Under the pieces are notes generated by a model that was not told the origin of the DNA, did not search any database, and worked only from the letters and a program-made list of their open reading frames with translations. From positions 62,001-126,000 of the forward strand of contig CAMVEX010000004.1 in the NCBI GenBank assembly GCA_947166625.1: a DNA stretch of 64,000 nucleotides. Reading direction: 5' to 3'. Each line of letters begins with the position of its first letter. Position 1 is the first letter of the stretch. Of this stretch, positions 3,513 through 52,047 are shown piece by piece. The stretch comes from an uncultured Clostridia bacterium (lineage in GTDB: Bacteria; Bacillota; Clostridia; Oscillospirales; Acutalibacteraceae). The translations under genes and the position numbers were made by a program.

Positions 3513-3851
3513 ATGAACAAGACAGAACTTGTCGCTGCAATCGCAGCAAAGGAAAACATCGAGAAGAAGCAGGCAGAGGCCGCTGTTAAAGCCGTTGTTG
3601 ACGGTATCAGCGCAGCTCTCGCAGCAGGCGAAAAGGTTCAGCTTATCGGCTTCGGTACTTTCGAGGTCCGTGAGCGCGCAGCCAAGACCGCTCGTAACCC
3701 CCAGACAGGCAAAGCTGTTAAAGTTCCCGCAACAAAGGTTCCCGCTTTCAAGGCAGGCAAAGCTCTTAAAGACGCTGTTGCTCCCAAGAAGGCAGCTAAA
3801 AAGGCTCCCGCAAAGAAAGCCCCTGCAAAGAAAGCAGCAAAGAAAAAATAA
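3513..3851 (+). CDS. hup: HU-family DNA-binding protein with lysine/alanine-rich C-terminal tail
   Basis: 112 residues. Residues 1-90 are a standard HU fold: [32 protein letters not shown] (the DNA-gripping beta arm at about 46-66) and [14 protein letters not shown]. Residues 91-112 are an added tail made almost only of Lys, Ala and Pro in KKAPA-type repeats, like histone H1 tails. HU compacts the nucleoid and bends DNA. An ATG follows a GGAG-type ribosome site, and a TATAAT at 3483-3488 could be a -10 box, though no good -35 was found. Codons are strongly biased (Lys mostly AAG in the core; GCT/GCA Ala), as expected for a highly expressed gene. A strong hairpin follows the stop. Confidence 0.95.
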
Positions 3852-47894: not shown

Positions 47895-49775
47895 TCATTT
47901 AAGTAATTCATACTGAAACAACTTTTTGCTTATATGACTTTTGTAGTAGTTTTTAAGATTCGTTTTTAGCGTTTCTAAATCACCGTTCAGTTCAGGATAG
48001 TTATATACCTTCTTTTTATTTTTACCACTACCTGTTTCGGTAAATGTATTAAGTTCTCTTGATATTTGATATACTCCATAATTGAAGCCGGAATTATAAT
48101 TTTTTGTTTTTCGAGCTTGTGAAATAATTTTATTCCATAATTCAAGTAAAGCAATTTCTTCATCATCCAAAGAAGTATTTTTATTTGAAGCGAAGTTTTT
48201 AAGATCAGTAAGAGCTATGGTTTCTTCTTGACTGTCATCAAAGCATAATTCATTTTGAAATTTGTGCCCATCGAAATCAACAAAAGACAAGCATTTATTT
48301 TTGTTACTCAGACAAGCAAAAATCAAACAAGCCTTGCAAAGTTCAAGATCCCTCTTGAATGTATATCCACCATCAAAGGTGATAAATATGCTGTCTTTTT
48401 CGTACCACTTATCAAATGGATACATTTTTGCAGAAAAAAGAACAAGTATATCTAAATAGTTAGATTTTAAGACATAGTTTCCTCTACCATTAAAGTATGG
48501 TAAGCGTCCTAAATCATAACTTGCAGAAACGGGACAAAAATAGCCGATTACTTCATCATCAGCATATATATTGGTTTCAATCTTCTTTCCTAATACAGGT
48601 TTTCCGCTGGAATCGCATGCGATGTTTGTTCTAACTTTTCCGGTATACTTTGTGTTACTGGATGAAAGTGTAGTTTCTACTGTTTTTATTTCTAAGATAC
48701 AATCAAGTTTTTTAAGCTCTTCATTTTCAATATCATATATTTCTAAATTATATCCCCCAAAAGTGTTTTCATCTTCATAAGACCACAAGATACAGCCTAT
48801 GCTTGAGGGCGTTGCATGAAAGTGTTTTCTGTTAAAAATAAATCCTTTTACAAAGCGACCTTCTGAATTATTTATTATTCCGAGCGACTTAAAATACTTC
48901 ACGGGAGAAAAAAGAATAAAGCTGTCACCTTTATTTCGCAGATACCACTTATATCCACTCCAAATAAAGCGATTTGCAAAATCTCGGACTGTGCTGATAT
49001 TAGGATTTTTAAATGAGCTTTTATTTTTACTCATTTCGTTAAATACGAATGATTCTTTATTTGTTGTAGTATGTTTATTACCTTCATTATCATATGATTG
49101 GTTTATTGATGAAGTATCATCATACGGTGGATTTTCAAATAGAATTACGGAGCAATTAGGATCATCAATGTAGTTTTTGATGGTTTCATTTTCAATATAC
49201 TCTTTGCTCATTGCATCTGCATTCGCTATAACACCATTTCTATAATCAACATTAGCTTCCGTAGGGGGAATGATTTCTCTAACCTTATCTCCAAGACGTT
49301 CCAAAAGCACTTTATATTCATAGTATTCGTATGTGCTTACAACACAATGTTTAATAAGAGGGTCTCCGTTTTTGTCTTTGATAAATTCTAAGGGAATTTC
49401 CAAATTCCCTGTACCTGCACATCGGTCAAGAATTATGTAGTCATTCCCTTCAGGCACTCTATTGACAGCCATTTTGACCAGTTCTGCGGCCTTTTCTGCA
49501 TACAAAATGGGAGTATAAAATGCACCAAGATCCTTCTTAGACAATTTATCATTCAGACAATCCATCAAGTATTTGAATTTTTCGTTGGTTTTTCCTCTAT
49601 AAGGACTTATTAGCCCCTTAAAGTGGCGCGGTTTTCTGATTTCTCCCGTTAGTTTAACGGCAGTCCCAGTTTCGTCACCAAGGAAATCTCCTTTTTTTGC
49701 CTTTGGATTTTCACGATAATATCTTTCGGCCCATCCCACAATGCAGTTTTCGTCTATGTTTATAGGAAAGTACAT
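47895..49775 (-). CDS. Eco57I-like N6-adenine DNA methyltransferase with target-recognition region
   Basis: 626 residues. The order LGAFYTPILYAEKAAELV (motif X region), DRCAGTGNLEIPL (SAM-binding motif I) and VILFENPPYDD (catalytic motif IV, NPPY) is that of gamma-class adenine methyltransferases in Eco57I-type Type IIG enzymes. Residues from about 330 on should recognise the DNA target. No nuclease motif is present in this ORF; it lies in the upstream ORF. No good ribosome site precedes the ATG. The frame stays open for eight codons before the ATG, back into a run of nine A at the end of the nuclease gene, so a slip would fuse the two. Confidence 0.85.
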   Translation of the reverse strand: MYFPINIDENCIVGWAERYYRENPKAKKGDFLGDETGTAVKLTGEIRKPRHFKGLISPYRGKTNEKFKYLMDCLNDKLSKKDLGAFYTPILYAEKAAELVKMAVNRVPEGNDYIILDRCAGTGNLEIPLEFIKDKNGDPLIKHCVVSTYEYYEYKVLLERLGDKVREIIPPTEANVDYRNGVIANADAMSKEYIENETIKNYIDDPNCSVILFENPPYDDTSSINQSYDNEGNKHTTTNKESFVFNEMSKNKSSFKNPNISTVRDFANRFIWSGYKWYLRNKGDSFILFSPVKYFKSLGIINNSEGRFVKGFIFNRKHFHATPSSIGCILWSYEDENTFGGYNLEIYDIENEELKKLDCILEIKTVETTLSSSNTKYTGKVRTNIACDSSGKPVLGKKIETNIYADDEVIGYFCPVSASYDLGRLPYFNGRGNYVLKSNYLDILVLFSAKMYPFDKWYEKDSIFITFDGGYTFKRDLELCKACLIFACLSNKNKCLSFVDFDGHKFQNELCFDDSQEETIALTDLKNFASNKNTSLDDEEIALLELWNKIISQARKTKNYNSGFNYGVYQISRELNTFTETGSGKNKKKVYNYPELNGDLETLKTNLKNYYKSHISKKLFQYELLK

Positions 49776-49785
49776 ATCTTCTGGA

Positions 49786-50226
49786 TCATTTTTTTTTGCT
49801 TTTCAATATGAATTTAACTTTTCCAGAATCAGACATGTTACTGTAATTATATTTTTCCAAATACATTTTAGCAACAAAGCCTTCATTATCTTTTGAGGCG
49901 GCACCAACATAAACTTTATGTATATCATCAGAATAGTCGGCAGATTTATAAACATAAACAGTAGTAGTATTAAGATCAACTAGAAGAATCGTCGCAGGTA
50001 CTGATTCTCCCTTAATTCTCATTTTAGAGAGATATTTAATGGCCTGAAAAAGAACTTTATTTAGATTTGTAATGTTTAATTTGAATTCAAGAATATTACC
50101 ATTATAAACTCCGTCTGTGTTATCTATCAGAACAGAATCGTCATTGTCATAAGGAATCCCATAGTTTTCAAAAAACTCTATTTGCCCATCTCTTTCAGTA
50201 TTGTAAGGCGTGCTGAAGTTAGACAT
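49786..50226 (-). CDS. PD-(D/E)xK nuclease-like subunit of the restriction-modification locus
   Basis: 146 residues. A D-x8-ExK motif stands at residues 38-49 (TDGVYNGNILEFKLN: D38, E47, K49), as in N-terminal nuclease domains of Type IIG enzymes. The region after it (NLNKVLFQAIKYLSKMRIKG, then ATILLVDLNTTTVYVY) fits the same core fold. Taken alone the protein lacks any DNA-specificity domain. It ends in three Lys codons made of nine A, followed by TGA. ATG 50226 has AAGGAG eight bases upstream; a GTG at 50235 overlaps that site. The nuclease call rests on a short motif. Confidence 0.7.
   Translation of the reverse strand: MSNFSTPYNTERDGQIEFFENYGIPYDNDDSVLIDNTDGVYNGNILEFKLNITNLNKVLFQAIKYLSKMRIKGESVPATILLVDLNTTTVYVYKSADYSDDIHKVYVGAASKDNEGFVAKMYLEKYNYSNMSDSGKVKFILKSKKK
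49789..49797 (-). repeat. Homopolymer of nine A at the nuclease/methyltransferase junction
   Basis: On the minus strand the last three codons of the nuclease ORF are AAA AAA AAA, then TGA. A shift of -1 (or one added A) reads AAT GAT and goes straight into the methyltransferase frame without a stop. The window where both frames are open is only about 17 bases and consists mainly of this run. Confidence 0.95.
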
Positions 50227-50244
50227 ATTTTCCACTCCTTAAAC

Positions 50245-50263
50245 TGACATTCAGTAAATGTCA
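50245..50263. promoter_or_regulatory. Operator site 1 (perfect inverted repeat)
   Basis: TGACATTCAGTAAATGTCA: seven-base perfect arms around a five-base centre, located just upstream of the nuclease gene start. Likely bound by the divergent HTH protein. Confidence 0.7.
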
Positions 50264-50273
50264 TTTATGAGGC

Positions 50274-50302
50274 TATCTTAACATAAAATAGCTTTGATGA
50301 CA
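50274..50302 (-). promoter_or_regulatory. Putative promoter of the R-M genes
   Basis: Minus strand TTGTCA (50302-50297 area), 17 bases, TAAGAT. The -35 box lies inside operator site 2, so binding there should repress transcription. Confidence 0.5.
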
Positions 50303-50316
50303 AGCACTAAATGTCA
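50298..50316. promoter_or_regulatory. Operator site 2
   Basis: TGACAAGCACTAAATGTCA matches site 1 in 16 of 19 positions, 53 bases away. It lies just before the ribosome site of the HTH gene. Confidence 0.65.
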
Positions 50317-50329
50317 AAAAGGAGTTTTT

Positions 50330-50575
50330 ATGTTTAAAAACAAAGCTGACGGGAAAAATAATATATGTGGAAAGAATATCGCAAAAATCCGGGTTGGTAT
50401 GGTTCCTAAATGTAGTCAACGAAAGCTTGCAGATTTATTGCAATTGGAGGGGATAGATATAGATAAAAATGCAATTCAAAGAATAGAATGTGGAAAAAGA
50501 TTTATAACTGACATAGAGATTAATGCATTTTGCAAAGTATTAAGTGTCAGTTATTATGAGCTGTTTGATGACTAA
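50330..50575 (+). CDS. XRE-type HTH regulator of the R-M locus (controller-like)
   Basis: 81 residues. The Cro/C1-type HTH covers about residues 15-75: GKNIAKIRVGMVPKCSQRKLADLL, then KNAIQRIECGKRFITDIEINAFCKVLSVSYYELF. It is AT-rich like its neighbours and is transcribed away from the R-M genes. Two 19-bp inverted repeats in the shared control region suggest that it regulates itself and the nuclease/methyltransferase, as controller (C) proteins do. ATG 50330 follows AAAAAGGAG. Confidence 0.85.
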   Translation: MFKNKADGKNNICGKNIAKIRVGMVPKCSQRKLADLLQLEGIDIDKNAIQRIECGKRFITDIEINAFCKVLSVSYYELFDD

Positions 50576-50736: not shown

Positions 50737-50771
50737 AGGTTCACGGGTGAATTCCCGTGAACCTCTTTTTT
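50737..50771 (+). terminator. Terminator at the right edge of the AT-rich island
   Basis: Perfect 11-bp stem (50737-50747 with 50754-50764), six-base loop, then C and T6. Between the HTH stop and this hairpin (50576-50736) there is AT-rich sequence with small self-complementary stretches (for example CTTTTTA...TAAAAAG at 50607-50625) but no gene. Confidence 0.85.
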
Positions 50772-52047
50772 ATGAAACCGCTTTTTTGCCTTCGGCGCCC
50801 TGCATATTTTCTCTTGCGACCGCCAGCATCAGCTTTATCCTGTTTTCCTGATTGACCTGCGTTGCGCCCGGGTCATAATCTATGGGGACTATGTTTGATT
50901 CGGGATATATCTCACGCAGCTTTCTTACCATTCCCTTGCCGACTATGTGATTGGGCAGGCATCCGAAGGGCTGAGCGCAGACGATATTGCCGTAGCCGTT
51001 TTCTATCAGTTCCATCATTTCGGCGGTGAGCAGCCAGCCTTCGCCCATTTTGCATCCGTAACCCATCACCGGTTTGATAAGCTGTTTCAGATGCATATAT
51101 GATTCCGGCGCAGTGAAGCTGCCGTAAGCCTTGGCGGCTGATTTTATGCATTTCTCAATATGAAGCATATATTTCATCAGCAGCCCCATCGCCGCTTTTT
51201 TGAGTTTCTTGCCGCCGTAAAGGCGGATATCCTCAAGCCTGTTGTCGGTCTTGAATAAAACGAATCCCATAAGCCCCGGCACATTCACCTCGCATCCCTG
51301 ACTCAGCAGGAAATCCTCAAGATTGTTGTTGCCGAGAGCGGAGTATTTTACATATATTTCGCCTACTATACCTACCTTCACCTTTTTTTCGTGATTTACC
51401 GCGATCATGGTGAAATCCTTGGTGATTTTGGGCAGGATCCTCTTCATCGCGAAGTAGCCGTAGCCCTTGTTTTTGTCAAAGAGGGCTATCAGCTTCGTTA
51501 TCCATTTCTCAACCATGAAATCCGTTTCGCCCTCATTGAGTTCATAGGGCTTGACCTGATTTTTGAGCAGCATTATCAGATCGCCGTAAATCAGGCAGGA
51601 TAAGAATTTCATCGCCATTACGGGCGTGAAGGTAAAGCCCGAATTCTTTTCGAGCCCGCTCAGATTGAGCGAGATAACGGGCACATATCCGTAGCCGGTC
51701 TTTTTGAGCGCTTTGCGCAGGAGATGGATGTAATTTGACGCTCTGCATCCGCCGCCGGTCTGAGTGATGAGCAGGGCGGTCTTGTGCGGATCGTATTTGC
51801 CGCTTTTGAGAGCGTTTATGAGCTGGCCGATAACCAGCAGCGCGGGGTAGCAGGTATCGTTATGGACCGTATTAAGCCCCTCATCCACTATCTCTCTGCC
51901 GCTTGTATGAAGCAGTTCGGTTTTGTAACCGTGCTGTTTGAGCACTCTGTTGAGAAGCTCAAAATGTATCTGAGCCATATTAGGGATGAGGATCGTGTAA
52001 TCCTTGCGCATTTCTTTTGTGAATTCTATTCTGTCATCGCTGTTCAT
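50770..52047 (-). CDS. Acyl-CoA dehydratase activase-related protein, C-terminal component
   Basis: 425 residues. NDTCYPALLVIGQLINALKSG, TQTGGGCRASNYIHLLRKAL and VCAQPFGCLPNHIVGKGMVRKL are the cysteine motifs of the HgdB-like/2-hydroxyacyl-CoA dehydratase-related half of the large activase-type proteins (about 1400 residues) found in many Clostridia. Here it is a separate ORF. It lies in the same frame as the upstream activase and is divided from it only by one TGA and two codons. GGAG about ten bases before the ATG allows its own start. The physiological substrate of this group is not known. Confidence 0.82.
   Translation of the reverse strand: MNSDDRIEFTKEMRKDYTILIPNMAQIHFELLNRVLKQHGYKTELLHTSGREIVDEGLNTVHNDTCYPALLVIGQLINALKSGKYDPHKTALLITQTGGGCRASNYIHLLRKALKKTGYGYVPVISLNLSGLEKNSGFTFTPVMAMKFLSCLIYGDLIMLLKNQVKPYELNEGETDFMVEKWITKLIALFDKNKGYGYFAMKRILPKITKDFTMIAVNHEKKVKVGIVGEIYVKYSALGNNNLEDFLLSQGCEVNVPGLMGFVLFKTDNRLEDIRLYGGKKLKKAAMGLLMKYMLHIEKCIKSAAKAYGSFTAPESYMHLKQLIKPVMGYGCKMGEGWLLTAEMMELIENGYGNIVCAQPFGCLPNHIVGKGMVRKLREIYPESNIVPIDYDPGATQVNQENRIKLMLAVARENMQGAEGKKAVS

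Follow-up and report, generated by a model that had tools for sequence, protein, structure and literature searches.

A run of nine adenines parts the nuclease and methyltransferase frames of a probably acquired Type IIG-like gene in an uncultured Clostridia bacterium

In our study of a 64,000-nucleotide stretch of an uncultured Clostridia genome (the window), we identified a Type IIG-like restriction-methyltransferase gene that, as written, encodes two chains, a nuclease and a methyltransferase, and whose frames part at a run of nine A. The explanation we regard as fairly probable is that of a probably acquired one-chain gene in which the A run between the domains changed its length by one base through replication slippage, so that the gene would be largely OFF, perhaps with a leak, and could in principle revert. 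This explanation spans a plain pseudogene, phase variation and a selected leak, which differ in the purpose of the slip.

All parts of the gene lie on the minus strand. The nuclease part (49786..50226), which is PD-(D/E)xK-like, has 146 aa from the ATG at 50226, or 149 aa from a GTG at 50235, and its ORF finishes as AGC AAA AAA AAA TGA, with the TGA just past the A run (A9T, 49789..49797) at which the frames separate. The methyltransferase part (47895..49775, 626 aa) carries DRCAGTGNLE and ENPPY, followed by a probable target recognition domain; its ATG stands 10 bases past the nuclease TGA, and upstream of that ATG its frame stays open for 9 codons. An AAGGAG precedes the nuclease ATG by 8 bases, and inspection of the sequence revealed no comparable ribosome site before the methyltransferase ATG. 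Both this and the parting of the frames at the nine A agree with the initial annotation. Translation of the ORFs shows no further stops in either half; a third-frame ATGA overlap, seen by eye at the nuclease stop, leads to a short ORF. The initial annotation had also placed the methyltransferase in the -1 frame and had taken ten A as the length that would make a plain fused gene, and here our results differ. The start-to-start distance (50226 - 49775) is 451, one more than a multiple of 3, which puts the methyltransferase in the +1 frame (equivalently -2) relative to the nuclease. Because of this offset, and because the spacing of relatives needs tract lengths of 2 mod 3, ten A would not join the two parts, and the -1 frame with A10 is ruled out by arithmetic and by the core-to-core spacing of the relatives. 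The A9 at the junction is a homopolymer within a reading frame, some of whose lengths are in register and others not.

Scanning of genome contigs for the enzyme family yielded 40 loci, 38 of which, along with 2 plasmid records and 5 loci from genome searches, make up the 45 relatives in which we compared the spacing between the nuclease core and the methyltransferase core. Left out of this set were L022 and L039, whose locus begins inside the methyltransferase, L074, which lies at a contig edge with the nuclease part only, L077, in which tblastn did not find the nuclease part, and two duplicates, L002 (of L003) and L078 (of L076). In 44 of the 45 the spacing is divisible by three and holds no stop, so that the two parts form one open frame; the exception, L021, is broken earlier, within the nuclease part. 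The spacing measures 106 nt in the window, one base more than the 105 nt found in eight of the 45 relatives, including the two nearest (L003 and L004), and 102 nt in the third-nearest, L036. From the spacing of the relatives it follows that the family is one-chain and that the window gene is such a chain, put out of register by one base in its A run. That the two ORFs are halves of an enzyme that is one chain in relatives, with a Type IIG-like architecture, is therefore supported, as the initial annotation had supposed when it named an alignment to homologues as a check; the alignment was run, and the outcome that would have spoken against it, homologues always separate and with a normal ribosome site, is excluded by these 44 single chains. 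It is very improbable that the nuclease and the methyltransferase are truly separate subunits made by coupled translation: the short distance from the nuclease stop to the methyltransferase ATG would suit such coupling, yet the one-chain state of the relatives disfavours it, the methyltransferase ATG has no ribosome site that we could see, and the methyltransferase homology starts at the junction itself.

The nearest relative, L003 (Ruminococcaceae bacterium RUG13231), shares 72% identity over the methyltransferase. The gene was found in one of 147 other related genomes searched, and the family is spread over genomes from Bacteroidales to lactobacilli. In the Mesomycoplasma member (L040), a TGA early in the methyltransferase was taken by us as tryptophan in that genus. 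One-chain members also occur on Limosilactobacillus plasmids, in four records annotated as hypothetical or conserved hypothetical proteins; the two records that were opened each hold one chain (L043:4809-7274 and L044:5530-7995). No confirmed relatives were found in viral contigs or phages in either collection.

As for the class of the enzyme, the N-terminal PD-(D/E)xK nuclease domain of Type IIG enzymes is present, with D41, E50-F-K52 and Q64 invariant in 36 sequences (alignment A3), and its predicted fold aligns best, by VIA-align, to the nuclease domains of BpuSI, DrdV and BsaXI, which are solved restriction-methyltransferases. Foldseek with the nuclease domain alone gave zero matches at E <= 0.001, so the nuclease assignment draws on the motif and on VIA-align. 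An N6-adenine (gamma-type) methyltransferase core with motif I and NPP(Y/F) is likewise present; its motifs are invariant or nearly so in 32 relatives (alignment A2) and are kept in the window. In a fold search, the model of L003 matches BpuSI, M.BseCI, LlaGI and M.TaqI. Because none of the matches listed for the whole model (50 VIA-align rows) was confined to the C-terminal part, we give the target recognition domain as probable. The initial annotation had likened the gene to Type IIG enzymes of the Eco57I type; the one-chain, nuclease-then-methyltransferase Type IIG-like architecture stands, while the Pfam Eco57I model matched 0 of 36 family members at E <= 0.01 and a single member matched N6_Mtase (7.5e-5). 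No Pfam or NCBIfam model describing the family as a whole was found, and a family without such a whole-length model is worth naming. Matches of the methyltransferase half to PH_12 (0.0011) and Tox-MPTase4 (0.055), below the cut-off, and of 2 of the 36 members to ICE_RAQPRD (best 0.0016), were taken as chance.

Runs of nine A are rare in this organism, with three in the whole 2.49-Mb genome. A sample of 464 kb (the window and 20 stretches) has 15 A/T runs that are exactly eight bases long and a single run of nine. When the 355 sampled ORFs, all of at least 150 codons (391,896 nt), were compared with synonymous-codon shuffles, A/T runs of at least nine numbered 0 against 11.9 expected, and there were 11 of eight where the shuffles predict 31.5; those of seven are commoner than in the shuffle (139 against 101.8), so the avoidance begins only at eight. 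The A9 of the window falls outside this set of ORFs because the nuclease ORF is shorter than 150 codons, and it lies on the sense strand in a genome that avoids such runs.

At two of the three A9 runs a gene is broken, both times with a +1 offset, and the third run is in frame. The latter (contig C11, 67882-67890; locus L066) sits in an intact open frame of 250 codons, which we take to be KipI/PxpB-like. The other break lies outside the window (L068:7641-7649; contig C21, 39640-39648), where the run closes a 193-aa ORF ending RCNLFHGSKKNR; beyond it, a continuation of about 30 residues, IGNERDQNLVRASAVLLEGYLKVIL, follows in the +1 frame, and the corresponding stretch of the single homologue found (L099), RCNLFHGSKVMVSPRDQSLVADGAKVLEDF, is in one frame. 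The truncated protein, presumably HEPN-like, gave zero Pfam matches. Homologues of its gene were found in one of 397 other same-family genomes, in none of the 147 other relatives, and in no viral contigs, plasmids or phages. Regarding the sampled runs of eight, 12 of the 15 sit in frames that are unbroken over 233 codons or more; of the other three, one is at the end of an ORF, one next to a start codon and one within a frame of 110 codons. It is important to note that an assembly or sequencing error at the homopolymer, with the true gene a plain one-chain gene, would agree with the one-chain state of the relatives and with a genome in 49 contigs, but two observations speak against it. First, no visible break of a long frame occurs at any of the 15 sampled A8 runs, and an error-prone assembly should have broken more of them. 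Second, one of the three A9 runs is in frame. Since the two A9 breaks share their offset and most of the A8 runs sit in long unbroken frames, a real one-base slip is likelier than an assembly error, which we hold to be unlikely.

Special attention was given to the state of the two halves. Of 108 positions at which 32 intact relatives do not vary, the window gene keeps the residue at 107, counted over both halves. Uncorrected pN in the nuclease is 0.170 between the window and L003, 0.152 between the window and L004, and 0.173 between L003 and L004; the corresponding methyltransferase values are 0.177, 0.200 and 0.200. We used pN alone and set dN/dS aside because synonymous sites are saturated. 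By these comparisons both halves look constrained, and since the conserved residues are kept and pN is not raised on the window side, the break would be recent or the product may still serve. Of the 45 relatives, at least 4 carry lesions, one of which falls at a homopolymer: an in-frame TAG stop in the methyltransferase of L006 (near 4040), a nuclease frameshift without a homopolymer in L021 (near 3770-3810), the end of methyltransferase homology at residue 351 in L036 (after 5035), and, in genome G714 from another family of the order, a methyltransferase frameshift at a G8 run (contig C70; L076:2482-2489). The genes of L004 and L041 extend beyond their contigs and could be judged for lesions only in part. 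The 1.9-Mb genome of G714 has five G8+ runs, one of which is in the enzyme relative.

These lesions make plain decay of the restriction-methyltransferase gene a fair alternative. Under it, a one-base slip killed the enzyme recently, there is neither a selected switch nor a useful leak, and the tract is a mere mutation spot. The finding that no relative keeps a run of at least nine also agrees with such decay, which we consider a real contender, at somewhat under even chances; it sits less easily with two halves that are otherwise undamaged and not fast evolving, so that any death of the gene must be recent, and with a site that can in principle revert.

In the gene part available from 40 relatives, no A/T run of nine or more was found, against 7.4 expected by shuffle; a shuffle of the nuclease ORF alone tells nothing, since the Lys codons at its end are fixed, and was set aside. 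The A run codes Lys-Lys in L004 (A7) and L008 (A6). Neither a tract kept among relatives, as in a phase-variable gene, nor a slip site conserved among homologues, as in recoding, was found in these 40, and because of this a programmed switch is unproven. Neither flank of the run has RNA structure beyond chance (z 0.07 and 0.54), and we rejected hairpin-aided ribosomal frameshifting on this ground.

Homopolymer switching of Type IIG genes is known. The phase-variable Type IIG gene cj0031 of Campylobacter jejuni NCTC11168 is ON with G9 and OFF with G10 (PMC4889913), and, like the window gene, it is a one-chain restriction-methyltransferase gene divided into two ORFs by a one-base homopolymer change. 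In cj0031 the poly-G is at bp 2573 of 3732 and is flanked by conserved domains, and variation was seen in colonies (PMC4889913), whereas the window gene has its poly-A at the border of nuclease and methyltransferase, is known from one genome sequence and has no Pfam Eco57I match. In Helicobacter pylori, the Type IIG enzyme JHP1272 / HP1353-HP1354 has two homopolymer tracts and is also turned on and off by a homopolymer frameshift; it differs in being similar to TaqII/MmeI, in having been shown experimentally, and in a second tract that alters specificity (PMC3936762). Among the open-licence papers listed by our searches, judged by titles and abstract openings, none names a poly-A switch of a Type IIG enzyme in Ruminococcaceae.

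A dedicated switch would be expected to have a tract longer than nine A. This counts against adaptive phase variation, in which the A run would be a contingency switch between ON and OFF among cells, possibly with a methylation-only state, which is conceivable because the break sits at the border of the two domains. Such a switch would have parallels in cj0031 and JHP1272, in the family member of another family of the order that is broken at a G8 run, and in the second A9 of this genome, which truncates a defence-like gene. The tract is however not conserved in any of the 40 relatives, and the genome avoids such runs instead of keeping a set of them. We see slippage or phase variation at this A9 as possible, and adaptive phase variation in itself as rather doubtful.

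Transcriptional slippage on A runs has precedents too. In IS1447 of Clostridium thermocellum, cDNA clones of an A9T site had eight A in 9/52 and ten A in 8/52, and the genomic clones nine A in 30/30 (PMC6211511). As in the window, the A9T of IS1447 closes an upstream ORF that continues in the +1 frame, and the fusion positive control is named A8; the differences are that IS1447 encodes a transposase, that a run of seven to nine A is conserved among IS1447-like elements, and that a stem-loop is predicted beside its run (PMC6211511), with none evident at the window run. At the A9 of Thermus dnaX, half of the product is the shorter form through slippage (cited in Baranov et al., PMC1088944), and at 11 A in C. 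rodentium tssM slippage reaches 20-25% (PMC4256274). Baranov et al. treated genomes that avoid 9A as those with slippage-prone 9A, and report that avoidance of A/T runs starts at nine bases in many genomes (PMC1088944). A selected leak, in which a fixed minority of transcripts would encode the fused enzyme, can appeal to these cases and to the avoidance of A9 in the present genome; it is improbable in our assessment, given that none of the 40 relatives has the slip site and that no adjacent hairpin beyond chance was found.

The surroundings of the gene bear on its origin. A divergent ORF of 81 aa on the plus strand (50330..50575) is helix-turn-helix-like (HTH_3, E 0.12, below the Pfam cut-off) and is a candidate controller of the restriction-methyltransferase gene; no convincing homologue of it was found within 1.5 kb upstream of the relatives' genes. 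Between the divergent genes lies an operator-like near-palindrome, TGACATT-n5-AATGTCA (50245..50263), and a second 19-bp box with 84% identity to it follows 53 bp apart (50298-50316), so these two boxes in 50245-50316 are possible controller operators. The GC content is 31-33% for the restriction-methyltransferase gene and its helix-turn-helix neighbour versus 49% for the window. The neighbouring gene at 50770-52047 is present in 29 other same-genus genomes, of which 11 loci were fetched; in 9 of the 11, those with at least 900 bases on the relevant side, the nuclease, methyltransferase and helix-turn-helix genes are absent, and in L091 and L092 the flank was too short to judge. Due to the low GC and the absence at same-genus loci, the cassette looks acquired. 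A terminator-like hairpin of 11 pairs lies at 50737-50764 of the window, 3' of the helix-turn-helix-like ORF.

Returning to the slipped one-chain gene, the course of events would start from a probably acquired Type IIG-like restriction-methyltransferase gene, whose A run between the domains, made of Lys-Lys codons in some near relatives, would have reached nine by replication slippage. Ribosomes would then stop at the domain border and yield a lone nuclease domain without the targeting part, and the methyltransferase part alone would arise only via weak re-initiation at its ATG. Fused enzyme would come from transcripts on which RNA polymerase slipped at the A run, since transcripts with eight A would place both parts in one frame; a minority of full enzyme is plausible, given that eight-A transcripts join the frames and that slippage at A9 is known from IS1447. 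The expected state would be mostly OFF, possibly leaky, and, if replication slips can also restore the frame, reversible in principle; any benefit to the cell is likewise a supposition. A broader proposal, which we offer as speculative and think distinctly improbable, is that the few A9 runs of this A9-avoiding, Ruminococcaceae-like Firmicute act as slip-dependent dials on acquired defence genes: in cells with A9 the polymerase would set how much full enzyme is made, a small share, perhaps along with a product that only methylates, replication slips would turn some cells fully ON, and likewise for the gene that we presume to be HEPN-like.

The window gene differs from the known homopolymer-switched Type IIG genes in its poly-A tract, in the position of the tract at the nuclease/methyltransferase border, in its unmodelled family and in its host, a Firmicute close to an uncultured Ruminococcaceae genome. 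Its A9 is at most a candidate addition to those genes, and may be a plain recent break. With a tract of constant length, the case would be an ordinary recent break of a restriction-methyltransferase gene. If it varies or leaks, the homopolymer control of Type IIG enzymes would reach poly-A in a Firmicute, beyond Campylobacter and Helicobacter, and the switch would stand between the cutting and the marking part, a position that makes a state of methylation alone conceivable.
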